From positions 1-47,143 of the IMG/VR virus record IMGVR_UViG_3300030389_002283: 47,143 nt of DNA. One strand, given 5' to 3'. This DNA comes from a virus. This document shows positions 12,196-47,143 of the stretch, in pieces; position 1 is the stretch's first letter; each line of letters begins with the position of its first letter. The notes under the pieces are model-generated. The model saw nothing but the letters and a program-made list of their open reading frames with translations. It searched no databases and was not told the DNA's origin. The position numbers and the translations under genes are program-made.

Positions 12196-12428
12196 TGTTA
12201 TTTAAAAAAGCAACACTCGGAAATCCACTTAGCACACTAGACCATCTTCGCTTAATAAGAAAAACTTTATTGCAAGAAAGTGATTGGACACAGGCTAGTG
12301 ATTCACCATTAACAAATGCCAAGAAAACTGAGTGGGCTACTTATAGACAACAATTGAGAGATTTGCCTGCATCATACTCTAATGAGGACAGTATAAACGA
12401 TGTGGTATTTCCAAGTGAGCCAAGCTGA
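12195..12428 (+). CDS. Tail fibre assembly chaperone-like protein
   Basis: A 77-residue protein with SDWTQASDSPLTNAKKTEW and ATYRQQLRDLP, the signature of the phage tail assembly chaperone family found next to fibre genes (S-D-W-T-Q-x-x-D-S-P-L then W-x-x-Y-R-Q-x-L-R-D-L-P). Start and stop overlap both neighbours. It may assist folding of the 9061 tip protein or the S74 fibre. Confidence 0.85.
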   Translation: MLFKKATLGNPLSTLDHLRLIRKTLLQESDWTQASDSPLTNAKKTEWATYRQQLRDLPASYSNEDSINDVVFPSEPS

Positions 12429-12778
12429 TGAATGAAATAGTTACAGTAATACAACAAGTTGGTTTTCCTATAGCTGCTGCTCTGGGTTTAGGGTGGTTTA
12501 TTTACAAACTAATAATGAGGATTGTAGATGGCATGGAAACAAAGATAGATACTGTTGATGATAAAGTTCAGCAACAAATTGAGGCTATGGAAGAAAGGTT
12601 AGGCACTAAACTTGATTCACAACATGGTATTTTGGTAGCATTAATTGATAGGGTCAGAAGCCTTGATAATGAGATTATAAGACAAGATACATTAATCAAA
12701 ACTATATTAGGTGTGCCACAATTAATAGACAGCAATAAAATTGCAAAAGCAGATAGAGATGACCAAAGAAAAGATTAA
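12428..12778 (+). CDS. Membrane-anchored coiled-coil protein
   Basis: A 116-residue protein with one N-terminal transmembrane helix (VGFPIAAALGLGWFIYKLIM) and a long charged coiled coil (DTVDDKVQQQIEAMEERLG). A C-terminal I-L-G-V-P segment follows. Small TM plus coiled-coil proteins of this type are common near lysis or tail genes in marine phages. A holin-like or scaffold role is conceivable but not shown. It overlaps the next small ORF by 20 bases. Confidence 0.7.
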   Translation: MNEIVTVIQQVGFPIAAALGLGWFIYKLIMRIVDGMETKIDTVDDKVQQQIEAMEERLGTKLDSQHGILVALIDRVRSLDNEIIRQDTLIKTILGVPQLIDSNKIAKADRDDQRKD

Positions 12779-12863
12779 ATATAAAATTGACTGGTATAAG
12801 CTAACAGTTTGGATTTTGATACTGTCATTTTGTTTGATTTTTTGGTATAACATATTGATATGA
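12759..12863 (+). CDS. Tiny membrane protein upstream of csgF
   Basis: A 34-residue ORF not obvious in standard calls: a basic N-terminus (MTKEKIKYKIDWYK) then one hydrophobic helix (LTVWILILSFCLIFWYNILI). It begins inside the preceding gene and its TGA overlaps the csgF ATG (ATGA), which suggests translational coupling into the curli-like cassette. Function unknown; it could be a membrane peptide of the cassette or of lysis. Confidence 0.5.
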   Translation: MTKEKIKYKIDWYKLTVWILILSFCLIFWYNILI

Positions 12864-13345
12864 ACAACACAGAAAAAGATTATTACAAATCAAAAAAAGG
12901 ATGTAGTGTCTTGCTTTTATTATTGCCATTTTTAGCTTTACCAATTTTTGCTGATGAAATGGTACACACTTTCAAAAATCCAAGTTTCAGTGGAATAGGA
13001 ACGTCTGCTCATTACATGACCATTGAAAATCAAGAATTCAATAGAAAGAAAGCAATCAAAGAAGAAATGAAAGCATATCAAGAAGAACTCAAAAGAGAAG
13101 CCGAAAATACAACATTGGCGAGATTCATACGTAATCTTGAAAGCCGAATATATGCACAACTCTCTAGACAATTAGTTGATGCTTTGTTCGGAGAAAATCC
13201 AAGTACAAGTGGTATCTTGGAATTAATGGGAAATACTATTGAATACTATGTTGATGAAGCTCTGGGACTTATTACCCTCAAAATTACTGATAGTGAAGGC
13301 AATGTTACTGAAATTACGCTTCCTATCGGTGATTTCTCTTTCTAG
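12860..13345 (+). CDS. csgF: CsgF-like curli secretion accessory protein
   Basis: A 161-residue secreted protein. A basic start (YYKSKKG) and hydrophobic core (CSVLLLLLPFLALPIFA) form a signal peptide with cleavage near A-D-E. The mature start VHTFKNPSFSGIG parallels the F-R-N-P-N-F-G-G pore-binding N-terminus of bacterial CsgF. The C-terminal part (TIEYYVDEALGLITLKITDS then ITLPIGDF) matches the CsgF pattern Y-x-V-D ... G-x-L-x-L-x-V-T-D ... T-x-I-x-V. In bacteria CsgF plugs into CsgG from outside and couples secretion to fibre nucleation. Immediately followed by csgG, overlapping by 44 bases. No CsgE is seen. Confidence 0.88.
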   Translation: MNNTEKDYYKSKKGCSVLLLLLPFLALPIFADEMVHTFKNPSFSGIGTSAHYMTIENQEFNRKKAIKEEMKAYQEELKREAENTTLARFIRNLESRIYAQLSRQLVDALFGENPSTSGILELMGNTIEYYVDEALGLITLKITDSEGNVTEITLPIGDFSF

Positions 13346-14108
13346 TTGTGCTGCCTTTTTATTTGACCCACTAGAGAATAATATTGTTCCTTTTGCTAAT
13401 CCTGAGGGCGCAGAGATTTTACAAGATGTTTTGCCTGAACTTACTGAGGTAGAAACACCTGCAATAAAACCAACAGTCGCAATATATCCAACAAGTTTTA
13501 CTGACCAAACTGGACAGAGGCTATCAAATAGTCTGTATGCAAGTTTTTCAACAGCAATAACACAAGCGCCACACACATATTTAATCAGCGCTTTACACAA
13601 AGCAGGAAAGGACAACGATGGTTTTTTTACAGTTGTAGAGCGTGTCGGCCTTGATAACTTAACCAAAGAGCGACAGCTTATTAGAACAACAAGAACACAG
13701 TTTGAGGAAGATGATAGCCTTAGGCCTCTTTTATTTGCAGGTTTACTACTTGAAGGTGGTGTGGTAGGGTATGAAAGTAACACCAAATCTGGTGGACAGG
13801 GTGTGAGGTATCTTGGCATAGGATTCTCTAAGCAATACCGAATGGACACTGTGACAGTTTCCTTGCGTCTTGTATCAGTATCTACTGGACAAGTTTTGTT
13901 AGACATTTTGAGCGAGAAAACTCTTTATAGTGCTTCAATATCTCAAGATGTTTTTAGATTTAGAGCTAAAGGAACGAAACTCGTTGAAATTGAAAGTGGC
14001 AATGTTAGGAATGAACAAAAGCGTTTGGCCTTACAGTTGGCAATAGAAACAGCAGTTTTGGAACTTATCTCTAAGGGAAAAGAAAATGGATTTTGGAAAT
14101 ATGATTAA
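13302..14108 (+). CDS. csgG: CsgG-like outer-membrane curli secretion lipoprotein
   Basis: From ATG 13302 the protein is 268 residues (E. coli CsgG is 277). It begins with a short lipoprotein signal peptide and lipobox L-S-S-C (Cys16); the longer upstream frame lies inside csgF and would bury this. The core is unmistakable: KPTVAIYPTSFTDQTGQ, FSTAITQAPHTYLISAL, FTVVERVGLDNLTKERQLIR, GGVVGYESNTKSGGQGVRY then LGIG, and VSLRLVSVSTGQVLL. CsgG forms a nonameric outer-membrane channel for curli subunits. In the pore-constriction stretch aligned by eye with E. coli Y51/N55/F56, only the Phe (F82, S-F-S-T-A) is kept. A signal peptide plus CsgF suggests a working pore. Confidence 0.93.
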   Translation: MLLKLRFLSVISLSSCAAFLFDPLENNIVPFANPEGAEILQDVLPELTEVETPAIKPTVAIYPTSFTDQTGQRLSNSLYASFSTAITQAPHTYLISALHKAGKDNDGFFTVVERVGLDNLTKERQLIRTTRTQFEEDDSLRPLLFAGLLLEGGVVGYESNTKSGGQGVRYLGIGFSKQYRMDTVTVSLRLVSVSTGQVLLDILSEKTLYSASISQDVFRFRAKGTKLVEIESGNVRNEQKRLALQLAIETAVLELISKGKENGFWKYD

Positions 14109-14817
14109 AAAATATTTTATTTTATTCTCTCTACTTGCTTATTGTGGTAATTACCTACTAAGTGATAACGAGGTGTATATCAATCAAGTTGGCGCTACAT
14201 TGAATTTAGATGTAGAACAGCTAGGAAGCTCCAACATTATTGGTGGATTAGATGCTGTTTCTGGTACTATGACAGCATTTGATTTAAATGGCTCTACAAT
14301 GACTGTGGACATAAATCAAATCGGCTCTAGCAACCAGTTTCTAGGTGACATTTTTAGTGATGACTTCACAGGCTTTTTTGAGTTTACTGGTGATTCAAAT
14401 ATATTCAACATAGAGGTTGACCCAACTAACACTTATGGTGCAGACGATGGCAACTTCAATATACAAGTAACTGGTTCAAGCAATGAGTTTGATTTAGATG
14501 TCGCAAAAAATGATTTAGCATCTGGTCTTGACCTAGACTGGATTATTCAAGGAAGCAACAATGAATTTGATTTTGAGATTGATTACGACTTAGGCACAAA
14601 CTACGTTGATGTGGATGGAAGTGATAACACAGTAAACTTCAATGCTGATGGATATGCCGAAGGGTTTTTCTATTTAGACCATACAGGCAGTAGTAGAACA
14701 TTCAATATTACACAATCATCAACTTTAGCTAGTGATTGGCTCAAGATTTTATCTAGTGGCAATAGTGGTACTGTTTGCGTCATTCAAAATGATGGCGGAA
14801 CAAGTACAAGCTGTTGA
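14086..14817 (+). CDS. Secreted curlin-like repeat protein (candidate CsgG/F substrate)
   Basis: A 243-residue protein from ATG 14086 (AAGGGA upstream; ATG 14101 is an alternative). A signal peptide is evident (MIKKYFILFSLLAYCGNYLL). The mature part is acidic and holds seven or eight short repeats around G-S-S-N: NQVGATLN, EQLGSSNII, NQIGSSNQF, FTGDSNIF, VTGSSNEF, IQGSNNEF, VDGSDNTV, HTGSSRTF. These recall the Q-x-G-x-x-N turns of curlin (CsgA/CsgB) but with many Asp residues and fewer Gln ladders. It overlaps csgG by 23 bases. Likely the exported fibre or adhesin subunit; amyloid formation is inferred, not shown. Confidence 0.75.
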   Translation: MDFGNMIKKYFILFSLLAYCGNYLLSDNEVYINQVGATLNLDVEQLGSSNIIGGLDAVSGTMTAFDLNGSTMTVDINQIGSSNQFLGDIFSDDFTGFFEFTGDSNIFNIEVDPTNTYGADDGNFNIQVTGSSNEFDLDVAKNDLASGLDLDWIIQGSNNEFDFEIDYDLGTNYVDVDGSDNTVNFNADGYAEGFFYLDHTGSSRTFNITQSSTLASDWLKILSSGNSGTVCVIQNDGGTSTSC

Positions 14818-15850
14818 TATTGGAAAAGTATTTGAATTAAAAGGTTACGCAAAAGTAATCAGAGAAAAGGATTACAATGCCGAACTAGATTTCGGCATTC
14901 AGTCCTATGACGATGTTAGAACTAGCAATGGCAGGATTGCAATATCTTTTGAAGACCAAAGCACTGTAAAACTAACTGAACATTCAAAATTGGTTATAGA
15001 CGAGTATATCTATGACCCTAACCCATCTAAAAGTAAATTAGCATTAAATTTTGCAAGTGGAACAGTAAGGTTTATTACTGGTAATTTAACTAAAATTGAT
15101 AAAAAAAACATATTTATCAAAACACCTACTGCTGATATTTCTATACGAGGAACAGATTTCACGACGACAGTAAATGAAATAGGTGAGTCTTTAATCATAT
15201 TACTGCCTAATCCAGATGGCTCAGCTAGTGGGGAAATTGAAGTTTCTACAGCTGTTGGCTCAGTAATATTAAATAGACCTTTTGAAGCCACCACAGTTTC
15301 AGTCTATGAAACAATGCCATCTAAACCAGTTATTTTGGATTTAACTTTAGATATTATTGACAATATGCTCATTGTAAGTCCACCTGAGGAGAAAACAGAT
15401 GATGATTTGCAAGGAACACGTCAAGTCAATGGTAACAATCTTTTAGCTTTTGATGATTTAGATATTGACTATCTCGCAGAGGATTTTTTTGAAGATGCTG
15501 ATTTTGAGTTCACAGAGCTAGATATTGATTATTTAAACGTCAATTTTTTTGAAGATTTATTAGATATATTAGAAGAGATTGATGAGTTAGAGGATGAACA
15601 ATTAGACCAACAGGCAACAACGACTGCAATAAAAGGCACTAATGTCGGACAAGACACAACAACGCAAATTACAACAATAATTACTGGCAATCTTATTTCA
15701 TTAAGAAGAAATGTAAATCAATCTGTGCAGTTAGACCTTGATTCAGGCTCTGCTTATACAGTAATCTTTATACAAGATGGAGTATCAAATCAAATAATTA
15801 TTAATGGTGGTGGCTCATCAAAAATAAGAATTTTACAATCATCAGGCTGA
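14732..15850 (+). CDS. FecR-domain periplasmic protein with curlin-like C-terminus
   Basis: A 372-residue protein from GTG 14732, overlapping the curlin-like gene by 86 bases. This start gives a good signal peptide (YLVAIVVLFASFKMMAEQVQA); later starts are possible. Residues ~28-150 are a FecR domain (VFELKGYAKVIREKDYN, DVRTSNGRIAISFEDQSTVK, then IKTPTADISIRGTDFTTTV). Residues ~240-275 contain a near-duplicate acidic repeat (LDIDYLAEDFFED and LDIDYLNVNFFED). The last ~45 residues end in QDGVSNQIIINGGGSSKIRI, resembling the curlin-like repeats next door. It probably works with the cyclase encoded four bases downstream, perhaps as periplasmic sensor or surface protein. Confidence 0.85.
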   Translation: MIGSRFYLVAIVVLFASFKMMAEQVQAVDIGKVFELKGYAKVIREKDYNAELDFGIQSYDDVRTSNGRIAISFEDQSTVKLTEHSKLVIDEYIYDPNPSKSKLALNFASGTVRFITGNLTKIDKKNIFIKTPTADISIRGTDFTTTVNEIGESLIILLPNPDGSASGEIEVSTAVGSVILNRPFEATTVSVYETMPSKPVILDLTLDIIDNMLIVSPPEEKTDDDLQGTRQVNGNNLLAFDDLDIDYLAEDFFEDADFEFTELDIDYLNVNFFEDLLDILEEIDELEDEQLDQQATTTAIKGTNVGQDTTTQITTIITGNLISLRRNVNQSVQLDLDSGSAYTVIFIQDGVSNQIIINGGGSSKIRILQSSG

Positions 15851-15854
15851 GCAA

Positions 15855-17642
15855 ATGAAATTAAGAAAAGTTTTTTATGGCTTTTTGTTGGCTTTATTTT
15901 TTTGTGTGCCTCTTGCATATAACCTTAAACCATTAACAATCTTAAAACTAAAAACCTTTGACACTTTTGTTAAAGAGCAACAACCCTCTGGATATTTTAC
16001 AGTTATTGATATAACAGAGGAAGATGTGCAGAGTTTTGGTGGATATCCTTTTCCTAGAAAAATATTAGGAGAAAAAGCAGCTTTGATAATGGAGCGAGGC
16101 GCACTTGGAGTTGGTTTTGTAATTTCATTTGTGGACGCTGATGTTTTTGGTGGTGATGAACTGTTTAGGGAACAAATGAAAGCGATTCCCTCTGCGGTCA
16201 TTGCCACCTTTGAATATGATAATAAAATCTACCCAGAGCCGACAGGAGTTGTGGTGTTTGGCCAAGAGGCAGAAGGCATAAAACTTAAAGGACACATACC
16301 GACGATTGATGAGCTTTCAGGTCTGAGTCAGGGAATGGTTTCTGCACCTTTATCAGATGATGGATTAGTGCGTACGCTTCCACTCCTCTTTCAAACGCCA
16401 GATGGTTGGATTCCCACATTTGGCACACAAGTTCTAAAAACTTTGGCAGGTAGTGACACGTTTATAATTAAAACAAACGAAAGTGGTATAGAAGAAATTA
16501 CTGTCAAAGGCATACCACCAAGCAAAGTTGATAGATATGGAAGAAAGTGGATTAGTTGGGTGGAAACTCCTAAAACTACGTTACAAGAATTGGATGTTGC
16601 AGGGAAATTTGTTTTTGTTGGTATAACAGCTAAAGGTGTAATGCCACAACTTGCTACAGCGAAAGGTGAGCTTCTTTATCCTCATTACATACAAACTGCT
16701 TTAGCTGAGTCAATTTTGATTACTGATAGTCCAAATATTCCATATTGGCATTTATCATTAGAATTAGCTGTAGTTTTTTTGTCAGTGCTTTTTATTTGGC
16801 TTCTAACACAATTTTTAGGCATCACATGGGGTTTAGTATCAAGTAGTGCAATATTTTTAGGCACAGGCTATTTTGGATGGTCAATGATACAAAAAGGTCT
16901 GTTAATTGATGTAACATGGGCGCTTATAAGTAGTTTTGTGACTGGTAGTATTAGTTTTTACTTAAATTTCAGAACGCAGTATAAATTAAGACAACAAATC
17001 AAAAAACAATTTGAGCATTACTTAGACCCAAGACAAGTCAAAAGACTGCAACAAAATCCAGAGTCATTAAAACTCGGTGGAGAGAAGAAATACTGCACAT
17101 ATTTATTTACTGATGTAAGAGGTTTTACACCTTTGACAGAAAAACTTACTCCTGAGGATGTCACACTAATTATGAATAGAGTTTTAACTGTCCAAGCAAA
17201 TGCAGTTAAGAAAAATGGTGGCATGGTTGATAAATACATTGGAGATGCGATGATGGCAGTTTTCGGCGCTCCACTAAGTATTACAGAGCCAGAGGATAAA
17301 GCCATAGACACAATGATTGATATTCTTGATGGCGTAAATCTTTTGAATTATGAGTTGGAAAATGAAGGTCTGCCTACAATAAAAATTGGTGTTGGTATCA
17401 ATTCTGGAGAGTCTATTGTAGGAAATATGGGCTCAGATACTAGATTTGATTACACTTGTATTGGTGATGCTGTAAATGTTGCTGCACGTTTAGAGTCAAA
17501 TACAAAAGAGTTAGGCGTATCAAATCTTATTGGCGAAGCAACAGCAAAAAACACTACATACAAATTAGAAGAATTAGATGGTATTATGGTTAAAGGCAAA
17601 AGCCAAAAGCTGAATGTCTTTACATGGAGATTTAATTTATGA
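15855..17642 (+). CDS. CHASE2-domain class III adenylate cyclase
   Basis: A 595-residue membrane signalling enzyme, very unusual for a phage. Residues 1-22 are an N-terminal anchor, ~25-290 a periplasmic CHASE2 sensor (FTVIDITEEDVQSFGGYPFPR is typical; ends G-E-L-L-Y-P-H-Y-I-Q-T-A), ~300-375 three transmembrane helices, then a linker and the cyclase domain (~405-560). All catalytic positions are visible: metal-binding D420 (FTDVRGF) and D464 (KYIGDAMMAVFG), adenine-selecting K460 and D532 (FDYTCIGDAVN), and N541/R545 (NVAARLES). It should make cAMP from ATP. FecR genes often neighbour such cyclases in bacteria. The TGA overlaps the holin ATG, so lysis and signalling genes are coupled. Confidence 0.95.
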   Translation: MKLRKVFYGFLLALFFCVPLAYNLKPLTILKLKTFDTFVKEQQPSGYFTVIDITEEDVQSFGGYPFPRKILGEKAALIMERGALGVGFVISFVDADVFGGDELFREQMKAIPSAVIATFEYDNKIYPEPTGVVVFGQEAEGIKLKGHIPTIDELSGLSQGMVSAPLSDDGLVRTLPLLFQTPDGWIPTFGTQVLKTLAGSDTFIIKTNESGIEEITVKGIPPSKVDRYGRKWISWVETPKTTLQELDVAGKFVFVGITAKGVMPQLATAKGELLYPHYIQTALAESILITDSPNIPYWHLSLELAVVFLSVLFIWLLTQFLGITWGLVSSSAIFLGTGYFGWSMIQKGLLIDVTWALISSFVTGSISFYLNFRTQYKLRQQIKKQFEHYLDPRQVKRLQQNPESLKLGGEKKYCTYLFTDVRGFTPLTEKLTPEDVTLIMNRVLTVQANAVKKNGGMVDKYIGDAMMAVFGAPLSITEPEDKAIDTMIDILDGVNLLNYELENEGLPTIKIGVGINSGESIVGNMGSDTRFDYTCIGDAVNVAARLESNTKELGVSNLIGEATAKNTTYKLEELDGIMVKGKSQKLNVFTWRFNL

Positions 17643-25008: not shown

Positions 25009-25635
25009 ATGTCATTTACAGTAAAACTTATATCTATTGATGATTTAATAGAATACGAAGATAACCCAAGAAATAATGATGAGGCTGTAGCAAAAGTAGC
25101 AGACAGTATCAAAGAGTTTGGTTTCAAAGTGCCAATTGTCGTTGATGAGGACATGATTATTTTGGCAGGTCATACAAGGTTAAAAGCAGCACGTTTATTA
25201 GGTTTAAAAAAAGTGCCTGTGCATCAAGCAAATGATTTAACAGAAGAACAGCGCAACGCATTCAGGATTATGGACAACAAATCTGGTGAAGCAGCTGATT
25301 GGGATAATGAATTGTTATCAAAAGAGTTTCAAAAATTAGCTGAAACTGATTTTGATATGCTTATGACAGGTTTTGATGATAAAGAAATTGCAAAGCTGAC
25401 GTCAGATATTTTAGAGTTTAAACCCTCAGATGATGTGAAATTTGAAGAAGGTTTTGCTAAACTTGATGATATACAGCCAAGTAATGTAAAAATGGTCAAT
25501 TTGTTTTTGAATCAAGACAATGAGCCGATTTTTCAAGAGATGATAGGAGTGCTTAAAGAAACTTGGGGACTTGAAAATTTGACTGATGCTGTTTATGAGG
25601 CTGTAAAAAAATGTTATGAAAACCCTGAAACTTAA
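25009..25635 (+). CDS. ParB N-terminal-domain protein
   Basis: A 208-residue protein. Residues ~1-110 are a ParB/Sulfiredoxin-fold domain: LISIDDLIEYEDNPRNNDE, VAKVADSIKEFGFKVPIVVD, and the P-loop-like motif ILAGHTRLKAARLLGLKKVP. The C-terminal half is helical and lacks a ParB DNA-binding domain. Phage proteins of this type often travel with DNA modification genes and could choose the target or work as a nucleotide-driven switch. Immediately follows the Cro-like gene and overlaps the TET/JBP gene by 20 bases. Confidence 0.9.
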   Translation: MSFTVKLISIDDLIEYEDNPRNNDEAVAKVADSIKEFGFKVPIVVDEDMIILAGHTRLKAARLLGLKKVPVHQANDLTEEQRNAFRIMDNKSGEAADWDNELLSKEFQKLAETDFDMLMTGFDDKEIAKLTSDILEFKPSDDVKFEEGFAKLDDIQPSNVKMVNLFLNQDNEPIFQEMIGVLKETWGLENLTDAVYEAVKKCYENPET

Positions 25636-26533
25636 ACCACATTACTCTTTAGAGGAAGCAAAAAAAAGAGCAGGTGAATTCGTCACCGAAGATGATTTTG
25701 ATTTACTGATTGAGGACGATTGTGATGCATACGATGAAAATGGTGAGCCACTATTTTTTTTCAGGAAAAATGCAATACCAACCAATTTATGTCGTGATGC
25801 GTATTACGTTCTAAGACACGCAGCAACACCAACAAATAATAGAGGCATGGCAGGTGGTATTATATCTGAGGAAACAAAGGCAGAGTGGGATATTGGTGAT
25901 GTGAGTAAAGTGCAAGTAAGACTAAGAAAGAAAGATGGTACGCTTTCAAACACAAGGAGAGCTAATACAGTAAACTCTGGTATTGTTGGATTTTTTGATA
26001 GAAATGCTAGATTTCCATATTGCAGACAGACAGCTTGGTATGAGAAAAACTTTATGCAGTTTAAAGACGCTTATCCATATATAAAATATATTGATAAACT
26101 TTTTGCAGAGGCCTGTCCTGAAAGATATAAGGCACAAAAAGATATGGCAAATAAAACCAATAAAGACTTTGTCATACAAGATACTGCCTTCACAACAGTG
26201 ACTGTAAACAAAAATTTCAGAACTGCTTTGCATACAGATGCAGGTGATTATGAAAAAGGTTTAGGAAATTTAGCAGTTTTAGAGGCAGGGCAATACAAAG
26301 GTGGTTATACTGTTATACCTAGATACAGAGTCGGCTTCAATGTCAGGTCAGGTGATGTGTGTTTCTTCAATGTGCATGAGTATCATGGCAATACTGAGCT
26401 AAAGAGCAAATTGGCATATGAAAGAATAAGTATTGTGTGTTATTACAGAGAAAATATGTTTCAATGCTTAAATGCTGAAAAAGAATTACAAAGAGCTAAA
26501 GCAAGACAAAGAGGCGATAGTCTTAGTGCCTAA
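25616..26533 (+). CDS. TET/JBP-family 2-oxoglutarate/Fe(II) DNA oxygenase
   Basis: A 305-residue protein. The catalytic jelly-roll is at ~190-280: NKNFRTALHTDAGDYEKGLG gives H206-x-D208, then LAVLEAGQYKGGYTVIPRYR and VGFNVRSGDVCFFNVHEYHG with the second His (H254 or H257), and ERISIVCYYREN with the 2-oxoglutarate Arg (R270 or R278). This is the pattern of phage TET/JBP enzymes, which hydroxylate the methyl of 5-methylcytosine or thymine. The N-terminal ~180 residues are less conserved. It lies in a ParB-TET-amidotransferase-GNAT-transferase-kinase operon. Whether the substrate is T or 5mC is unknown; no methyltransferase gene is seen. Confidence 0.85.
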   Translation: MKTLKLKPHYSLEEAKKRAGEFVTEDDFDLLIEDDCDAYDENGEPLFFFRKNAIPTNLCRDAYYVLRHAATPTNNRGMAGGIISEETKAEWDIGDVSKVQVRLRKKDGTLSNTRRANTVNSGIVGFFDRNARFPYCRQTAWYEKNFMQFKDAYPYIKYIDKLFAEACPERYKAQKDMANKTNKDFVIQDTAFTTVTVNKNFRTALHTDAGDYEKGLGNLAVLEAGQYKGGYTVIPRYRVGFNVRSGDVCFFNVHEYHGNTELKSKLAYERISIVCYYRENMFQCLNAEKELQRAKARQRGDSLSA

Positions 26534-27180
26534 TGTGTGCGGTTTTGGGATTACATAGCCAAGATTACATAGACCTTAATCTATTAAAAAAAATATTGGT
26601 GCAGTCAATGATTAGAGGCAAACACGCTACTGGTATTGCATATTTAGAAAATGATGAAATTAAATACAAAATTATTCCTAGCCATGCAGAGAGTTTTGAT
26701 ATACCTGATATTGCAACAAAATATCTTATTGCACATTGTCGTTATAGCACAAGCGATTTGGAGTATAATCAACCAATAGTAAGTGATAAATGGGCTGTTG
26801 TTCATAATGGCGTTATCACACAGGCACACCCAAGCACATGGCCTGATTTATATGGTTATGAGTTCCAAACAAAATGCGATAGCGAAATAGTCCTTCGTTC
26901 TTTGGAAGATGATAAACACCCACTTAATCTTAATGGCTCTATGGCTTGTGCAGTTTTAGAAAATTCTGACTCAGGCGCTTTACATTTTTTTAGAAACGAA
27001 CAAAGACCTTTATATTTTACTGAGCTAGGCACAACAACGATTGTAGCTTCAACTCGTGATATTTTGGCTCGTTCTGGCATAAATCAAGCTACGAAAACAC
27101 AAGCATGTTACACTTATAAAACTCAAAACAATCAGACGATGAAACACAAGGTACGTGATGTTATTGAAGATTTACAATGA
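26533..27180 (+). CDS. Class II glutamine amidotransferase (Ntn hydrolase)
   Basis: A 215-residue stand-alone glutaminase domain. MCAVLGLHS places the catalytic Cys at position 2, RGKHATGIAYL is the R-G-x-x-x-x-G motif, HCRYSTSDLEYNQPIV and WAVVHNGVI (H-N-G) and KCDSEIVL (D-S-E) are the other family motifs. It would release ammonia from glutamine or act as an amide-bond enzyme. In this operon it might transfer nitrogen onto a modified base. TAATG junction with the oxygenase gene, and it overlaps the GNAT gene by 23 bases. Confidence 0.9.
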   Translation: MCAVLGLHSQDYIDLNLLKKILVQSMIRGKHATGIAYLENDEIKYKIIPSHAESFDIPDIATKYLIAHCRYSTSDLEYNQPIVSDKWAVVHNGVITQAHPSTWPDLYGYEFQTKCDSEIVLRSLEDDKHPLNLNGSMACAVLENSDSGALHFFRNEQRPLYFTELGTTTIVASTRDILARSGINQATKTQACYTYKTQNNQTMKHKVRDVIEDLQ

Positions 27181-27775
27181 AGCTGAAACAGTAAAAGTAT
27201 TAGCACAACAAAGCGAAGGCAGATACACTAAATTTTTCAGAGCTGCTCATAGCCTCTGGAAAAGATTCAAAAACTATGAAAGACACCCACCTTATGTTTT
27301 GCTAAATGAAGAAAATGTAGAAGTTGCGATGATTTACTCTACTTTTAGTGATAAAACCAAATATACCAATCTTTATGAAATCTTTGCATTTGAGGGTCAT
27401 TCAGGAAAAGGTTATGGAAAAAAGGCTTGGGAGTTATGGCTTCAAGCTATGTATGTACGTGGCGCACACCGATTAAAACTATCATGCACACCTGACTCAA
27501 TAGGCTTTCACATGAAAAATGGTCTTGTGTTTTGGTCAGTAGATAGGTCAGGCTCATTGAGGTCAGACCAACCAATTATGCCTTCCATACAAGAACAAAA
27601 AGAGCTAAGAGAACGTGCAATTATTACACCTGATTTAGTTTTGCCTAATCAACAGGTCAGAAAAAGGCTCAAAGGTGAGGAACTAGAAAACTTAGATTTA
27701 TCACAAAACAAATTATTGCAAACTTACGAGGCCATACAAAAAGTAGGAGATTTTTGGCTGCGCAAACATTTATAA
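27158..27775 (+). CDS. GNAT-family N-acyltransferase
   Basis: About 205 residues from ATG 27158; GTG 27155 is also possible. The core motif A EGHSGKGYGKKAWELWL and the following HRLKLSCTPDSIGFHMKNGL are typical of GNAT acetyl-CoA-binding folds. N-terminal ~70 residues include RFKNYERHPPYVLLNEENVE; the C-terminal ~60 residues are helical. It may acylate an amine introduced on a hypermodified base, or modify protein. Sits between amidotransferase and transferase-like genes. Confidence 0.85.
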   Translation: MLLKIYNEAETVKVLAQQSEGRYTKFFRAAHSLWKRFKNYERHPPYVLLNEENVEVAMIYSTFSDKTKYTNLYEIFAFEGHSGKGYGKKAWELWLQAMYVRGAHRLKLSCTPDSIGFHMKNGLVFWSVDRSGSLRSDQPIMPSIQEQKELRERAIITPDLVLPNQQVRKRLKGEELENLDLSQNKLLQTYEAIQKVGDFWLRKHL

Positions 27776-28729
27776 ATGGATTTGAGGTTAGAACAAAATA
27801 GACAAAAGGCTTTTATAGACTGGTCTGTTTGGTCTTTAAATTACAAAGATTGTGACCCTGCATTGTGGATGCTTAATTATTTATTTGACAGATATGAGCA
27901 TAATATAGAGCAAAAATACTGGATTGCTTGGATATATGGCACTACTTATCATCTACCGACTGCTTGGATTATTTGGAATGAGTTTCCAGATTTTGAGTTA
28001 GTTGATTATGACAGATTGAAAGACTGGAATGACAAAAACTATAAAAGATTGCGCTATCAAACAGACACAAAATGGAATAAAGGACACCTACCAGAGCAAT
28101 TTGCCTCTTATCAAAAGTGGGTAGCACATTCAAACGCTTTAGGCACACAAAGGTCTAAGTTTAAAAATCTTGGACATAATTTTTCTATGTTATGGAACAG
28201 TATTAACCAATTACATAAGTTTGGACGTTACAGCACATGGTTTTATATGCAAACATTAAATGATTGTGTCGGTCATCGTGTTGTGCCTACTAATTTGAAA
28301 TTAGATGATTACTCAGGCTCTAGGAGTCATAGGAATGGTCTTTGCTATGCGTTAGCACGTGATGATTTGATAGATAAAAAACTAACAAATACACAGTTGC
28401 ATGAGTTACAACAAGGCGCACAGTTTTTGCAAGACCAAATAAACGCTAAAGGTTTTGATATGGATTTCTACGAGATGGAAACGCTTTTATGTAGTTTCAA
28501 AAAAATATTCAGAACTTCAAGAGGTAGATACTTAGGCTATTACTTAGATAGACAAGCAGAGGAAATAAAAAAAGTAGAGGCTGATGGTTGGCATGGTATT
28601 GATTGGCAAGTTTTCTGGGATGGTAGGAAAGAGTGTTTGCATAAAAAATTGTCAGCATCAAGGAGCATTAGAGAAGATTTATACAAAGTTTTTCTCAATA
28701 CAGGGACTTTGGAATATGGCACAGTTTAA
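27776..28729 (+). CDS. Candidate DNA-base transferase (alpha-GPT pyrophosphorylase/HMUDK-helical-like)
   Basis: A 317-residue, mostly helical protein rich in Trp and Tyr (FIDWSVWSLNYKDCDPALWM; YWIAWIYGTTYHLPTAWIIW; FGRYSTWFYMQTLNDCVG; GSRSHRNGLCYALARDD). The G-R-Y/F-x-x-x-x-Y-x-x-Q-x-L and R-N-G-L-x-x-A-L-x-R-D patterns resemble, by eye, the glycosylase-like helical domain of thymine-hypermodification enzymes (alpha-glutamyl/putrescinyl thymine pyrophosphorylases, also the helical part of 5-hmdU DNA kinases). It would replace a pyrophosphate on 5-hydroxymethyl-U with an amine. It is followed by a kinase gene, overlapping by 14 bases. Family call is moderate. Confidence 0.55.
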   Translation: MDLRLEQNRQKAFIDWSVWSLNYKDCDPALWMLNYLFDRYEHNIEQKYWIAWIYGTTYHLPTAWIIWNEFPDFELVDYDRLKDWNDKNYKRLRYQTDTKWNKGHLPEQFASYQKWVAHSNALGTQRSKFKNLGHNFSMLWNSINQLHKFGRYSTWFYMQTLNDCVGHRVVPTNLKLDDYSGSRSHRNGLCYALARDDLIDKKLTNTQLHELQQGAQFLQDQINAKGFDMDFYEMETLLCSFKKIFRTSRGRYLGYYLDRQAEEIKKVEADGWHGIDWQVFWDGRKECLHKKLSASRSIREDLYKVFLNTGTLEYGTV

Positions 28730-29264
28730 AGCAGTAGCAATTGGTGGTGTTCCTGCAACTGGGAAATCAACACTAATGAAAGCCATAATTGAGAAACTTA
28801 AAAAAACTTCATCTCCTACCACTTGGAAATTTGGTCTTTTGAATGGCCTTATGTTTGACAATATCTGTATAATCGGTACGTATCCTGCTGAACAGACTTT
28901 TGGTGGCACAGATAGACTATCTATGGCTGCGCCTAAAGATATGCAAAAATTTATTGATTGGGGTGAAAGAAGTATTTTATTTGAAGGTGATAGATTGTTT
29001 ACCAAAAATATTCTAGAAAATTTAATACAGAAATATGATACGAAAATAATTGTGTTGGATTGCGATGAGCAGACTTTAGACGAAAGACACAAAGCAAGAG
29101 GTGATAGTCAAACAGAAAAATTTCTTAAAGGGAGAGCTACTAAAATACAAAACATATTAAAGAGCGAGGCCATCAAGATAAGAACAGAGATATATACACT
29201 GTCAAGACTGAAATTGACCGACGACCTCGCAGACCAAGTTATTTCATTTTTTCGCCAAAGTTAA
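28716..29264 (+). CDS. P-loop kinase, candidate 5-hydroxymethyl base DNA kinase
   Basis: A 182-residue kinase from ATG 28716. The Walker A motif GGVPATGKSTLMKAI is at the start, D-R-L-S near the middle, SILFEGDRLFTK as a Walker-B-like strand, KIIVLDCDEQTLDERHKARGD, and KGRATKIQNIL as a lid-like helix. Nucleoside/DNA kinase fold. Next to the transferase-like gene and TET/JBP oxygenase it fits a 5-hmU (or 5-hmC) DNA kinase that activates the hydroxymethyl group. Its last 26 bases overlap the end of the convergent primase-helicase gene. Substrate not shown. Confidence 0.7.
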   Translation: MAQFKAVAIGGVPATGKSTLMKAIIEKLKKTSSPTTWKFGLLNGLMFDNICIIGTYPAEQTFGGTDRLSMAAPKDMQKFIDWGERSILFEGDRLFTKNILENLIQKYDTKIIVLDCDEQTLDERHKARGDSQTEKFLKGRATKIQNILKSEAIKIRTEIYTLSRLKLTDDLADQVISFFRQS

Positions 29265-41616: not shown

Positions 41617-41967
41617 AGTGCAGGTTTTCATCATTTCACAATAGAACAAGGTGCTACCTTTAGCAAAGTTTTAACGCTTAAAGATAGTTCCAACACAGTA
41701 ATAAATCTTACAGGCTACGCTAGTGCAGAGATGGACTTACGTGCCGAACAAGACTCATCATCAGAAATATTAACACTAACAACAGCTAATGGCAGGATAG
41801 CATTAGGTGGCTCTGCAGGAACTGTTACTTTAACTATATCGGCTTCTGACACTGCAAACCTGAGTGTGCAAGATGGCGTATATGATTTAGAGATTGTTGA
41901 TGGCTCTAGCAATATTTTTAGGATTTTAGAAGGAACTTTTAGCGTAAGAGGTAATGTAAGCAGATAA
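41614..41967 (+). CDS. Small beta-rich structural protein
   Basis: A 117-residue protein with FHHFTIEQGATFSKVLTLKD, DLRAEQDSSSEILTLTTANG, and GVYDLEIVDGSSNIFRILEG. The pattern F-x-x-x-x-G-A-T-F plus a late G-x-Y-D-L-E resembles small baseplate or fibre-anchor proteins (BppU N-terminal-like) in marine phages. Its TAA overlaps the fibre ATG, so it may attach the fibre to the virion. Confidence 0.65.
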   Translation: MSAGFHHFTIEQGATFSKVLTLKDSSNTVINLTGYASAEMDLRAEQDSSSEILTLTTANGRIALGGSAGTVTLTISASDTANLSVQDGVYDLEIVDGSSNIFRILEGTFSVRGNVSR

Positions 41968-44900
41968 TGGCCATAAGTAGAGTCACAGTATCAGACACCT
42001 CAACAATCAATTCTGTCACTATTACAGATACCAATGCAATATCTGTAGTCACAGTTGGAACACAAGGTCTTAGTGGTCCAAACGCTATACTCGGCAGAAG
42101 TGTGGTGGACTCTACTGCAAGTACCTCAGGCTCACTTTTAATATACGACCATGACAATACACGATGGGAAGATAGTCAAAGCACAAGGTCACAGTCGCTG
42201 ACAGCTAAGTTATTCAATTTACAATTTACTACTGGTGGCGCAACTGTTACTCAAATTTTTGATGAGGATGACATGTCATCAAATAGTGCAACAGGCCTTG
42301 TCACACAACAATCAATCAAAGCCTATGTGGATGCGCAATTAACAGCACAGGATTTGGACTTTCAAGGCGACTCAGGTGGCGCTTTATCCATTGATTTAGA
42401 TAGTGAAACGCTTGATATTGCAGGTGGCACAGGTATTGATACAAGTGGCTCTGGTAATACAATTACAGTTGCCATAGACGCAACTGTTGCCACACTCTCT
42501 GGCGCACAGACTTTGACCAATAAAACAATTGATGCTGACAATAATACCCTTTCAAACATTGAAGTAGATAATTTAAAGTCAGGTGTGTTAGATACTGATA
42601 TATCTTCAGTAGCAGGCACAGATACAACTTTAGCTTCAGCAAAAGCAATCAAAACATATGTGGATGCACAGCTTACTGCACAAGACCTAGATTTTCAGGG
42701 TGATTCAGGAGGTGCATTGTCAATAGACTTAGACTCGGAAACATTAGACATAGCAGGTGGTACTGGTATAGATACTGCAGGCTCAGGTAATGTCCTAACT
42801 GTTAGCATTGATTCCACAGTCGTAACTTTATCAGGCACACAAACACTAACTAACAAAACTTTAACAAGTCCAAAAATAAATGATTCAAATGCAATAACTG
42901 CAACAGGTGCAGAGATAAACATAATTGATGGTGATACTTCTGAATCAGCAGTAGTTATAGTTGATGCTGACCGATTTATTGTCAATGATAGTGGCACAAT
43001 GAAGCAATTAGCAGCTTCAAGAATATCAACATATGTCGCAGGCACAACAGAAACACTAACAAACAAAACAATTAATGCCGACAACAACACAGTTTCAAAT
43101 ATAGAGGTAGATAACTTCAAAGCCTCTGCCATAATCTTGGAATCAGAGGGTATAGGCAGTAATGATAATGACACCACAATTCCAACCTCAGCTGCAGTTA
43201 AAGATTATGTAGATACACAGATTACAGCAGAGGATTTAGATTTAACGTCTGATAGTGGCACAATTGCAATAGACCTTGATAGCGAAACGCTCACAATTGC
43301 AGGTGGCGAAGGAATAGACACATCAGCCACAGGAAACACTCTTACAATAGCTGCCGAAGATGCAACAGCCTCAAATAAGGGTGTGGCCTCTTTTGATTCA
43401 ACAGATTTTACAGTTTCATCAGGTGCAGTCACAGTCAATGCTGAAAGAGTTCAAGATATCGTTGGTGCAATGGTATCTAGCAACACGGAAAATGGTATAT
43501 CAGTTACTTATGAAGATAGTGATGGCACATTAGATTTTGATGTTGCAGACCCAACACTAACTTTTACAGGTGATGTTACTGGCTCTGGCACAATTACAAA
43601 TCTTGCAGATACTTCTTTTGCCCTAACAATTGCAGCAAACTCAGTTGCACTCGGCACAGATACAACAGGAAACTTTGTTCAGGCAATTTCAGGCACTTCA
43701 AATGAGATTGAAGTTAGTGGAAGTGGCTCAGAAGGAGCAACAGTAACAATTGGTCTGCCTGATGATGTGACTATCGGAAACGACTTAATTGTTACAGGTA
43801 ATCTTACTGTTCAAGGAAGCACAACCACATTAAATACTGCGACATTGGATGTGGAAGATAAAAATATTACGCTAAATAAAGGCTCAGGTGATACTAGTGG
43901 CTCTGCTGATGGTGCAGGTATCACTATACAAGATGCGGTAGATGCATCTACTGACGCTACCATTTTGTGGGACGCAAGTGCTGATATATTCAAAACTTCA
44001 CATGGCTTAAGAATAAATGGAGATACCAAAACATTTTCTGTTGGCGCAGGTGGTGATTTCTCACTTGTTCATAATGGCACTGATACTTTTATGGCTAACT
44101 CTACTGGTCATTTTTACATAACCACTACCTCAGATGATAAAGACATAATTTTTAGAACAGATGATGGCTCTGGTGGTGTCGCTGAATACATAACAGTTGA
44201 TGGTAGTCAAGAACGAACTGTTTTTCATAAACCTATAAGAATTGATGATAATGTTGGTTTTAATGTCGGCACAGGAAGTGACTTCCAAATAAGCCATAAT
44301 GGTACAAATAGCATTATTGCAAACCACACAGGAACATTATTCATAACACAAAATGTTGATGATGGTGATTTACAGCTTAGAAGTGACGATGGCTCTGGTG
44401 GAACTACGTCCTATATAACTTTAGATGGTAGTGCAGTTCGTACTGAGTTCCCTAAAGACACAAAACACTCAGATGATGTTAAGGCTTTATTCGGTGGTGG
44501 TAATGACTTAGAAATTTTCCACAGTTCATCTAACAATCATTCAGTAATAAAAGAATCTGGTAGTGGTAATTTAAGAATAAATGCAGATGATTTGATAATT
44601 TATAATACTGCTGTAAATGAAACTAAAGCATCATTTTTAACAGATGGTAGTGTCAGGTTGTTTCATAATGATATTAAAAAGTTTGAAACAACCTCAACAG
44701 GTATAGATGTTACTGGAGCAGTTGTTGCCACAAGCCTAGATATTAGTGGAGACGTTGATGTAGATGGCACTCTTGAAGCAGATGCGATAACTGTCAATGG
44801 CGAAACACTTGCCGAAGTAATAGCTGACACAGTGGGAGCAATGGTCGGCTCAAACACCGAAACAGGAATAACAGTAACATTCAATGATAGTGACAACACT

Positions 44901-47143
44901 TTGGATTTTGTTGTTGGCACATTAAACCAAGATACGACTGGAACTGCTGCTCTTGCAACACAGGTCACAGTTTCGGCAAATAATTCTACAGACGAAACAA
45001 TATTCCCAGTCTTTGTAGATGGTGCAACAGGCTCACAGGGTTTAGAAACAGACACAGGCTTCACTTACAATCCCTCAACTGGTTTAATCTCCTCTGCAGG
45101 CCTTACAGCGTCTGGAACAATAACATTTGGCAGTATATCTGATGGCAGTATAACAATTACTGCTTTTGTTGATGAGGATAACATGGCCTCTAACTCAGCT
45201 TCCTTAGTACCAACACAACAATCTGTAAAAGCCTACGTTGATGCCGAAGTATCAGCTGCAGGTGGTATGTCAAGTTTCATTATGGAAGATGATGATGGCA
45301 CAGAAGTAACAATCAATAACAATAAAGAAGTTAAATTTATTGGCTCAGGCATAACAACAAACTTTACTGATACAAGCACAGGCTCTGATAGTGACCCATT
45401 TGATTTGACCTTTACAATTGACGCTGCACAAACAGGTATAACCTCTATCCTTGCTACAGATTTAAAGATTGGAGAGGACGACCAAACAAAAATAGATTTT
45501 GAAACAGCAGACGAAATACATTTCTATGCTGCAAATGCAGAACAAGTTTTTGTATCTGATGGCGTTTTTGGACCACAAACAGACAGTGACGTAGATTTAG
45601 GAACAAGCTCAGTAAGATTCAAAGACGCTTACTTTGATACCTTGAATACAAGTGGAACTATTACATCAGGAGCAAATAGTGGAGTTATAAAAGAAATAGG
45701 AAGTGACTTATCATTAGTACAAGGAGCAGTTGGTTTAAGAATTAATGATGCAGCTTCAGCAATCTCACCAACCACAGCTAGTGCTAATAATGATGATGCT
45801 GTTGATTTGGGTGTCAGTAATATTAGATTCAAGGATATTTATATATCAGGAAAACTCACTAATGACGGGAGCGGAGGCGTATCGTTAGACGCTGCAGGAG
45901 ATATTACTCTTGATGCTGATGGTCAAGATGTTCTTTTCAAAGATGGTGGCACACAATTCGGCTCTATCAGAAAAAATGGAAACAATATTCAACTCATGGC
46001 CTCCATACAAGATGGTGATATTACATTTCATGGTGATGATGGTGGCTCAGCTATCACTGCCCTTACACTTGATATGTCAGATGCAGGTACAGCAACTTTT
46101 AACCACGATATAAAATTAGCTGATAATGGGAAAGCTGTATTTGGTGATGGCAGCGATTTAAATATATTCCATGATGCAACTGATGGCAAAATAGAAAATG
46201 AAACTGGTGACTTAAGATTTTTACAAAAAGCAAATGATGGTGACATTATATTTTCAAGTGATGATGGCTCTGGTGGCACTATTCAATATTTCAGAGTTGA
46301 TGGTGGTAATGAAATTGTAGAATTTAACAGAGATGTAAAACTTGGTGATAACGTAGATTTGAAGGTTGGAACTGGTAACGATTTACAGTTATTGCATGAT
46401 GGAACAAATTCAATTATTAAAAATACTTCTACAGGAAATCTAATTATCAGAAATACAGTTGATGATGGAGATTTGATATTGCAGTCAGATGATGATTCTG
46501 GTGGTGTTACAAACTATATAACTTTAGATGGTAGTGGAGCACAAACAATATTTGGACAAGATGCAAAATTTGGTGATAGTGTCCTATTAAAATTTGGAGC
46601 TAGCAATGACCTGCAGATAAAACATGACGGCTCAAATTCATTTATAGACCAAGTTGGTGTTGGTAGCCTTAACATACGTAATACAACTGATGACGCAGAT
46701 ATTATTCTATCCTCTGATGATGGTAGTGGTGGTGTTACAGCTTATTTATCACTTGATGGCTCTGAAGGTAATATTTTTTCTAGTGTCAATTTCAGAGCAG
46801 TTGATAACAAATTGATTGGTGTTGGTAATGCACATGACCTAAGACTAAAACATGATGGCACAGATTCTATAATTCAAAATGAAACAGGTAGCCTAAGTAT
46901 TATAAATAATACTGATGACGGAGATATTATTTTTAAAACAGATGATGGCTCAGGCAGTAATACAGCTTATTTAACTCTTGATGGTAGTGCTACAACTATC
47001 AACTTTGCAAAAAATGCCACATTTCCAGATGATGTAAAAATAGTATCAGGCACAGGTGGAGATTTAGAAATATTCCACAATGGTTCAAATAGCGTAATTA
47101 AAGACACAGGCACAGGCAATCTAAACTTAATATCAAATGGTGC
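41967..47143 (+). CDS. Giant repeat fibre, N-terminal part (3'-partial; continues at base 254)
   Basis: Starts at ATG 41967 (MAISRVTVSDTSTINSV) and stays open for 5177 bases to the window end. Joining 47143 to base 254 gives about 2083 residues. Residues ~115-520 contain long Asp/Ser-rich repeats (YVDAQLTAQDLDFQGDSGG twice, 111 residues apart, then a variant). The second half holds many beta repeats of 75-76 residues with the core GNDLQLLHDGTNSIIKNxTGN plus DDGDxxLxSDDGSGG. The S74 domain at the far end makes this an autoprocessed trimeric fibre. It lies between capsid and connector genes rather than after the tail tip. Confidence 0.9.
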   Translation, partial: MAISRVTVSDTSTINSVTITDTNAISVVTVGTQGLSGPNAILGRSVVDSTASTSGSLLIYDHDNTRWEDSQSTRSQSLTAKLFNLQFTTGGATVTQIFDEDDMSSNSATGLVTQQSIKAYVDAQLTAQDLDFQGDSGGALSIDLDSETLDIAGGTGIDTSGSGNTITVAIDATVATLSGAQTLTNKTIDADNNTLSNIEVDNLKSGVLDTDISSVAGTDTTLASAKAIKTYVDAQLTAQDLDFQGDSGGALSIDLDSETLDIAGGTGIDTAGSGNVLTVSIDSTVVTLSGTQTLTNKTLTSPKINDSNAITATGAEINIIDGDTSESAVVIVDADRFIVNDSGTMKQLAASRISTYVAGTTETLTNKTINADNNTVSNIEVDNFKASAIILESEGIGSNDNDTTIPTSAAVKDYVDTQITAEDLDLTSDSGTIAIDLDSETLTIAGGEGIDTSATGNTLTIAAEDATASNKGVASFDSTDFTVSSGAVTVNAERVQDIVGAMVSSNTENGISVTYEDSDGTLDFDVADPTLTFTGDVTGSGTITNLADTSFALTIAANSVALGTDTTGNFVQAISGTSNEIEVSGSGSEGATVTIGLPDDVTIGNDLIVTGNLTVQGSTTTLNTATLDVEDKNITLNKGSGDTSGSADGAGITIQDAVDASTDATILWDASADIFKTSHGLRINGDTKTFSVGAGGDFSLVHNGTDTFMANSTGHFYITTTSDDKDIIFRTDDGSGGVAEYITVDGSQERTVFHKPIRIDDNVGFNVGTGSDFQISHNGTNSIIANHTGTLFITQNVDDGDLQLRSDDGSGGTTSYITLDGSAVRTEFPKDTKHSDDVKALFGGGNDLEIFHSSSNNHSVIKESGSGNLRINADDLIIYNTAVNETKASFLTDGSVRLFHNDIKKFETTSTGIDVTGAVVATSLDISGDVDVDGTLEADAITVNGETLAEVIADTVGAMVGSNTETGITVTFNDSDNTLDFVVGTLNQDTTGTAALATQVTVSANNSTDETIFPVFVDGATGSQGLETDTGFTYNPSTGLISSAGLTASGTITFGSISDGSITITAFVDEDNMASNSASLVPTQQSVKAYVDAEVSAAGGMSSFIMEDDDGTEVTINNNKEVKFIGSGITTNFTDTSTGSDSDPFDLTFTIDAAQTGITSILATDLKIGEDDQTKIDFETADEIHFYAANAEQVFVSDGVFGPQTDSDVDLGTSSVRFKDAYFDTLNTSGTITSGANSGVIKEIGSDLSLVQGAVGLRINDAASAISPTTASANNDDAVDLGVSNIRFKDIYISGKLTNDGSGGVSLDAAGDITLDADGQDVLFKDGGTQFGSIRKNGNNIQLMASIQDGDITFHGDDGGSAITALTLDMSDAGTATFNHDIKLADNGKAVFGDGSDLNIFHDATDGKIENETGDLRFLQKANDGDIIFSSDDGSGGTIQYFRVDGGNEIVEFNRDVKLGDNVDLKVGTGNDLQLLHDGTNSIIKNTSTGNLIIRNTVDDGDLILQSDDDSGGVTNYITLDGSGAQTIFGQDAKFGDSVLLKFGASNDLQIKHDGSNSFIDQVGVGSLNIRNTTDDADIILSSDDGSGGVTAYLSLDGSEGNIFSSVNFRAVDNKLIGVGNAHDLRLKHDGTDSIIQNETGSLSIINNTDDGDIIFKTDDGSGSNTAYLTLDGSATTINFAKNATFPDDVKIVSGTGGDLEIFHNGSNSVIKDTGTGNLNLISNG
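46368..47143 (+). repeat. Tandem 225-228 bp repeats in the fibre gene
   Basis: Repeat cores begin near 46368, 46596, 46824 and 47049, one every 225-228 bases (75-76 codons), with older copies at about 44041, 44262, 44490 and 46140. Each encodes G-x-x-D-L-x-x-x-H-D/N-G-T/S-N/D-S, then T-G-x-L, then D-D-x-D-I-I-x-x-S/T-D-D-G-S-G. The window start matches this array with one unit missing. Confidence 0.85.

Follow-up and report, generated by a model that had tools for sequence, protein, structure and literature searches.

The gene that directly follows csgG in this phage DNA encodes a very acidic protein that is the curlin-type subunit ("CsgA/B") of a viral type VIII secretion module, and as the only such subunit of its module it is probably exported from the infected cell and stacked into a fibre or coat on that cell's surface. 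It is a conserved feature, and earlier work on viral curli modules largely explains it already, as their fibre gene. What is new is that the module occurs in a siphovirus-type genome with one curlin only, that glutamines are absent from the protein in a patterned way, that the predicted signal peptide of the neighbouring FecR protein lies inside the curlin gene, and that FecR ends in a beta module that appears to be found only in phages.

Curli modules carried by viruses abound in the sea, and fibre production by them is undemonstrated in the literature that we found; in one paper the viral module was argued to lack a fibre gene (PMC9004378, available text). In the marine phage described here, a very acidic curlin version appears to be the sole fibre subunit. 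Terminal Gln, an acidic Gln-free core, one subunit and a FecR tail together make the fibre question testable with one small protein, and the conserved pattern suggests what, concretely, the fecR and cyclase genes might do. Should fibres form, infected cells would gain a new surface during infection, which bears on cell clumping and on phage competition.

Gene context and distribution of the module

The window, by which we mean the whole stretch of 47,143 bases of an IMG/VR virus record that we analysed, is the genome of a tailed phage, complete or in part. It encodes HK97-type head, tape measure, distal-tail and J-like tail-tip proteins; the head, tape measure and tail tip make it siphovirus-type by gene content. 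Relatives of its terminase and capsid are less than 50% identical. A packed run of plus-strand genes leads from the tail-tip gene to nuclease and endolysin genes and comprises holin-like, csgF, csgG, curlin-type, fecR and CHASE2-cyclase genes (Table 1).

Table 1. Features of the curli module, in window coordinates.
Feature	Position	Strand	Evidence
Holin-like small membrane/coiled-coil gene	12428..12778	+	PHROG holin 9.6e-4; unknown-function PHROGs match better
CsgF, curli assembly factor	12860..13345	+	PF10614 E=5e-16
CsgG, outer-membrane curli channel	13302..14108	+	PF03783 E=1.6e-43; NCBIfam CsgG 5.9e-40
Curlin-type protein	14101..14817 (alternative start 14086)	+	ORF list, start codons, relatives' starts, AF2 model
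Repeat 1: R1a NEVYINQ, R1b LNLDVEQ	14167..14220	+	Canonical curlin motif, invariant Gln
R2b MTVDINQ	14299..14319	+	Gln in 55/59
Interior coils R3-R6	14371..14646	+	Gln ladder absent; motif-b position 1 always Asn (59/59)
C-terminal coils R7-R8	14662..14787	+	Gln invariant in R7b, R8b
Putative dual-coding overlap, 86 nt: curlin C-terminus and FecR signal peptide, different frames	14732..14817	+	Start-site and recoding tests
Exported (predicted) FecR-domain protein, GTG start	14732..15850	+	PF04773 E=1.6e-11
C-terminal beta module of FecR; its last strands are curlin-like and carry Gln	15626..15847	+	AF2 strands 306-369
Fusion of a CHASE2 sensor and a class III nucleotide cyclase	15855..17642	+	PF05226 1.5e-21, PF00211 1e-17

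The position directly after csgG, noted in the original prediction, is confirmed: CsgG is a strong Pfam match, and its stop codon (14106-14108) lies within the curlin gene, the two overlapping by 8 nt, or by 23 nt if the curlin starts at 14086. Near the start of CsgG is the motif LSSC, which we take to be lipobox-like. The holin-like gene had no Pfam match at 0.01; it is upstream of csgF in most loci long enough to include its site, and it occupies the site of the 'histidine kinase' reported in PMC9599517. Rfam and tRNA scans of the window gave no match, so the riboswitch/tmRNA context reported for the phage Melnitz was not found there, and promoter and terminator scans gave no more than shuffle level.

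Elsewhere in the window, positions 25616-29264 encode a Tet/JBP 2OG-Fe oxygenase (PF12851, 6e-25), a glutamine amidotransferase, a GNAT protein, an ADDT (amino acid:DNA transferase; PF18724, 4e-21) and a P-loop kinase, which is probably a DNA hypermodification set. A very long, repetitive tail-fibre frame (41967-47143) runs off the right end; a Peptidase_S74 domain closes the frame at 81-1328. Over 82 nt, the sequence at 46666 is identical to the window's first bases; a reading of the window ends as mutual repeats was wrong, since the match is only about 82 nt long and lies inside the tail-fibre gene.

Scanning IMG/VR with the window protein gave at least 590 relatives, and we retained 80 of these; scanning with its HTVC008M homologue gave 270. 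In counts not cleared of duplicate contigs (L081-L083, L085 and L169 at least), csgG is directly upstream in 150/151 window-type and 72/74 HTVC008M-type loci with enough flank, and csgF further upstream in 132/132 and 68/68. FecR is directly downstream of the curlin gene in all 152 window-type and all 70 HTVC008M-type loci, with the cyclase further downstream in 96/104 and 24/27. The curlin-type gene thus sits where the viral CsgA/B is expected, directly between csgG and fecR. When one genome per bacterial species was scanned, five loci were found, each with the module, and all five have phage holin/lysis genes beside the module or on the same contig; the window-type family therefore appears confined to phages at that sensitivity. 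The expectation that the protein is phage-specific held, the family being solely on phage contigs in the collections scanned, the five loci from bacterial assemblies among them. A CsgG relative (39% identity) was also seen on L088 (OR851715.1), a 1.5-kb unannotated 'Salmonella phage' contig with 2x coverage that is possibly host or contaminant DNA.

The number of curlins differs between the two types of locus. The gap between fecR and the cyclase gene is below 60 nt in 100/129 window-type loci, and where it reaches at least 300 nt (22 loci) the longest frame there has at most one searched turn motif; the gap is at least 300 nt in 38/38 HTVC008M-type loci, three examples of which carry 6-7 motifs. 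Neither the family profile nor Pfam found a second curlin (nucleator) in the window, and together with the short gaps this points to a one-subunit version of the module. In L031, L042, L052 and similar loci, a cytidylyltransferase-like frame (GAFDLLHAGHVVMF) is inserted between fecR and the cyclase gene.

Repeats, predicted fold and family of the curlin-type protein

The ORF at 14086-14817 encodes 238 aa from 14101 or 243 aa from 14086, with a net charge of -32. The start at 14101 (second Met) is used by many relatives; the one at 14086 is preceded by a better Shine-Dalgarno-like stretch. Counting from 14101, the N-terminus is hydrophobic and forms a helix in the model (residues 3-18), and relatives too have a hydrophobic N-terminus. 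Their mature part begins DNE[IV]Y, following an A, and is 217 aa long in most of them. The window's mature protein, taken from DNEV, likewise has 217 aa, with 35 Asp/Glu versus 3 Lys/Arg.

The AlphaFold2 model, made from 59 phage sequences including the window's, is a beta-solenoid of 16 strands (pLDDT 86.9, pTM 0.80) in which we saw no capping domain. The stacked repeats expected of the fold are therefore present in a confident model. Curlin models from AlphaFold can, however, have the wrong handedness if few sequences are aligned (Sleutel et al., PMC10192328). A BFVD structure search returned 'Curlin associated' phage proteins as all of its top three matches (E 9.5e-7 to 8.5e-5, TMq 0.65-0.70). 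Against the PDB, a sequence profile search gave no credible match and Foldseek no E below 0.5; the PDB matches found with VIA-align were generic beta-helices, and the model aligns well with the unrelated SufBD (Z about 17).

The original prediction had counted seven or eight G-S-S-N turns spaced 20-35 residues apart. Exact GSSN occurs only three times, and it is when GDSN, GSNN, GSDN, GSSR and SGNSG are counted too that eight turns, 22-33 residues apart, are obtained. A strand-turn-strand pattern occurs seven times (two overlapping doubles, so five distinct sites), whereas 5000 composition shuffles had it 0.09 times on average and at most four times, and the stricter published-type pattern G-x-x-N-x-hydrophobic-x-hydrophobic occurs four times versus a mean of 0.32, a count reached in 2/10,000 shuffles.

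The usual Gln ladders had also been described as mostly replaced, which is true of the interior coils but not of R1a, R1b, R2b, R7b and R8b. We scored the pattern over 59 phage proteins including the window's; identity to the window protein is as low as about 30% in 11 of them. R1a, R1b, R7b and R8b all have an invariant Gln at the last core position, R2b has it nearly always, and in R3-R6 Gln is not conserved while Asn holds motif-b position 1 throughout (R3b, R4b, R5b, R6b; Table 1). On this alignment the loss of Gln is a positional pattern, in which the ends appear to retain the curlin stacking residues and the middle does not. It fits a protein whose terminal Gln would be an interface kept for end-to-end stacking and whose acidic interior would be a 'gatekeeper' core. 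Asp gatekeepers suppress CsgA nucleation, not seeded growth (PMC11414021, available text), which together with the positional pattern suggests a fibre subunit needing nucleation. Two Cys are present in 58/58 relatives, the second at the C-terminus after R8, and the C-terminus is predicted to be disulfide-capable.

The protein had been thought to fit no known family, and this was wrong. It is homologous to the HTVC008M protein AGE60350, which carries the annotation 'curlin minor subunit CsgB' (31% over 224 aa; in a search of 2.3 Gb, E=1e-5 with 88% of the query covered), and to Melnitz QZI95051, annotated 'curlin associated repeat protein' (E=4e-4); its closest BFVD matches carry the same kind of name, and a viral curli module has been published (PMC9599517). 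A search with the curlin repeat HMM, suggested as a check, fell short: the window protein scores 11.9 bits versus the 20.7 of the Pfam Curlin_rpt (PF07012) cut-off, and 24/59 relatives match Curlin_rpt at E<=1, the best at 1e-5. Repeat 1 (NEVYINQ-VGAT-LNLDVEQ) aligns with repeat 1 of 11 alphaproteobacterial curlins with an hhalign score of 42.1 (probability 82%); the best of 60 column-shuffled controls scored 18.6. Beyond this repeat, no profile similarity to bacterial curlins is significant; the later repeats retain strand-XGXX-strand yet diverge from the consensus.

Curlin repeats have been defined as two motifs, a and b, joined by XGXX, with core positions held by Asn and Gln (PMC10192328). 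By this definition R1 is full, R2, R7 and R8 are half, and the interior is without Gln, and the Gln/Asn positions would fit the 'degenerate' class of the same study (Sleutel 2023). An N22-like targeting segment is absent, only D preceding R1a in the mature protein cut at DNEV; the N22 segment of E. coli is an outlier, not the rule, among curlins (PMC10192328). The description of the protein as an exported curlin-like beta-solenoid, and likely fibre subunit, is supported by the model, the BFVD matches, the repeat-1 profile and the Gln/Asn pattern, from which we infer export and fibre formation.

The fecR overlap and the FecR-cyclase pair

ATG or GTG is present at the same fecR start site in 132/154 window-type loci, and measured from this site the overlap with the curlin gene is 86 nt in 141/154. 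Where the curlin protein has Asn or Ser (AAY/AGY) just before Asp-Trp, the third base of this codon is T 132 times and C 11 times, versus 2453 and 1650 elsewhere in the gene, counts that come from related sequences and hence are not independent. Among 48 representatives, the fecR frame is open across the overlap in 47, the 48th having been measured from a misplaced Asp-Trp, whereas random synonymous recodings leave it open in 5.2% of cases and combine the open frame with a start codon and hydrophobicity in 0.2%. A start codon is present at the conserved site in 37/48 representatives, and the 11/48 without it must start elsewhere. Given the conserved start and the frame that is open far more often than in recodings, we conclude that the predicted FecR signal peptide lies within the last 86 nt of the curlin gene, in another frame.

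In the AlphaFold2 model of FecR, a signal helix is followed by the FecR domain (about 14909-15181), a disordered acidic linker (214-270), a helix and the C-terminal beta module (306-369). The FecR domain aligns with the PupR signalling domain (Z 16.0, rmsd 2.4, 139 aligned). Strands 306-369 have block pLDDT values mostly of 74-86, with 55 in the last block; the terminal strands read, for example, YTVIFIQDGVSN-IIING-SSKIRILQ, and Gln348 and Gln369 are invariant in 49 aligned proteins. The likeness of this tail to curlin is by motif and predicted strands only, and we do not claim homology. We rejected the idea that the tail is a genuine curlin repeat: the profile built from FecR C-termini misses curlins, its best matches being shuffles and unrelated frames, and hhalign gave E=0.047 and a probability of 1.1% with the phage curlins (score 16.3, only narrowly above the 15.2 of the best of 60 shuffles) and, with bacterial curlins, a score reached by 2/60 shuffles. 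FecR matches at 1e-20 are found in 83/385 alphaproteobacterial genomes. Among the matches listed, only two, on G001 phage contigs, extend past FecR profile position 231, and since the bacterial ones stop by that position the tail looks phage-specific.

Eight bacterial curlin regions that we examined, four of them with csgG, contained no FecR or cyclase match, and a defence reading was dropped because PADLOC matches only the cyclase domain (PycC). FecR/CHASE2-cyclase clusters are reported in Campylobacterota (PMC9239204), which makes a working FecR/cyclase pair plausible; a Sinorhizobium CHASE2 cyclase and FecR-domain protein (PMC5498481, available text) added no curli link. We hypothesize a sensing role for the pair, the most speculative part of our explanation. 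In its fullest form, which we regard as decidedly doubtful, the five genes would make a self-monitoring fibre machine. The FecR tail would nucleate or dock the curlin, replacing CsgB, and report build-up or fibre completion to the CHASE2 cyclase; cAMP would tell the infected cell, perhaps its lysis clock, that the coat is in place, and the overlap would couple translation of FecR and curlin.

Proposed fibre formation, alternatives and known systems

Our case for a fibre subunit is built on homology, gene order, predicted folds, the conservation pattern and the linkage to csgF, csgG, fecR and the cyclase gene. From these we infer CsgG export, stacking, their timing and their benefit. Late in infection, the overlapping genes for CsgF, CsgG and the curlin would be expressed by the host; the curlin would reach the periplasm via its predicted signal peptide and leave through the phage CsgG channel, with CsgF outside. 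It would then fold as a beta-solenoid of about eight coils, and end-to-end stacking via the Gln-bearing coils at both ends of each subunit would give a fibre or coat on the surface, the Asp-rich, Gln-free interior acting like CsgA gatekeepers so that no assembly occurs before the nucleation site. The benefit could be that sibling cells are held nearby or that competing phages are blocked; sibling capture has been proposed for viral curli (Zaragoza-Solas et al. 2020, PMC7029224).

Several points count against a fibre. The mature length is fixed at 217 in most relatives, unlike that of amyloids with variable repeat number, the protein is below the Curlin_rpt cut-off with significant similarity confined to repeat 1, no second curlin was found in the window, and the model also aligns with unrelated beta-helices (SufBD). 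Many beta-solenoids do not polymerise (PMC10192328), and no clumping was seen in Melnitz-infected cells (Buchholz et al., PMC9004378). The protein could instead be a non-polymerising beta-solenoid secreted via CsgG, serving as a monomeric surface adhesin or as a receptor block (superinfection exclusion). We think this unlikely: the fixed length, strong charge, interior without a Gln ladder and putatively disulfide-capable C-terminus would suit it, as would the mean identity of 0.671 for the curlin versus 0.609 for CsgG (741 shared pairs), a difference that is biased because the loci were collected by curlin similarity, but both terminal coils retain the curlin stacking Gln and the model has no cap.

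A lysis-timing or pore device, with CsgG as a pinholin- or secretin-like pore that the curlin-like protein plugs or gates, seems quite improbable to us. Such a role would suit the location of the module between the holin-like gene and the nuclease and endolysin genes, and a pinholin-like role was proposed in print for Melnitz CsgG, csgA and csgB being held absent (PMC9004378). However, the proposal rested on that absence, and in nearly all loci, including that of Melnitz, the gene after csgG is curlin-type. In Melnitz-3 (L087:6740-9534), two genes are annotated curlin associated repeat protein, contrary to PMC9004378. That the protein belongs to the virion, as a tail fibre or decoration protein, is highly improbable: its gene is 1.9 kb downstream of the tail-tip J gene and beta-solenoids are common in phage tails, but it has a predicted signal peptide, and the csgF/csgG/fecR linkage is near-invariable across phages with quite different virions, including HTVC008M.

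Taken as a fibre subunit, the window protein can be compared with those of known modules. The module of pelagiphage podo- and myoviruses consists of CsgF, CsgG, CsgA/B, FecR, a second CsgA/B and adenylate cyclase, and lacks CsgE (Wittmers et al. 2022, PMC9599517). The window has the same genes in the same order (PMC9599517, PMC7029224), its protein corresponding to the first CsgA/B, but its genome is siphovirus-type and its curlin single. The available text of PMC9599517 mentions siphoviruses for other genes and not for the curli module, and for the pelagiphage module the available text of both papers mentions neither the fecR overlap nor the Gln pattern nor the FecR tail. HTVC008M AGE60350 and Melnitz QZI95051 resemble the window protein in position, length and colinear homology, and HTVC-type relatives share the Gln at R1, R2b, R7b and R8b; HTVC008M and Melnitz differ in having a second, larger curlin and a fecR overlap that is nil or 23 nt. 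The second curlin of HTVC008M is AGE60352 (L086:8576-9901), annotated 'hypothetical protein', in which a PA14 domain precedes curlin repeats; it is possibly an adhesin-tipped curlin.

The Campylobacterota clusters resemble the module in that an exported FecR-domain protein is encoded beside a CHASE2 adenylate cyclase, but the partners mentioned in the available text are phosphodiesterase and TPR genes, not curli (PMC9239204). Compared to bacterial CsgA and CsgB, the window protein is without interior Gln, far more acidic and below the Pfam cut-off, yet it shares with them the first repeat, the strand-arc-strand architecture and the csgG neighbour.
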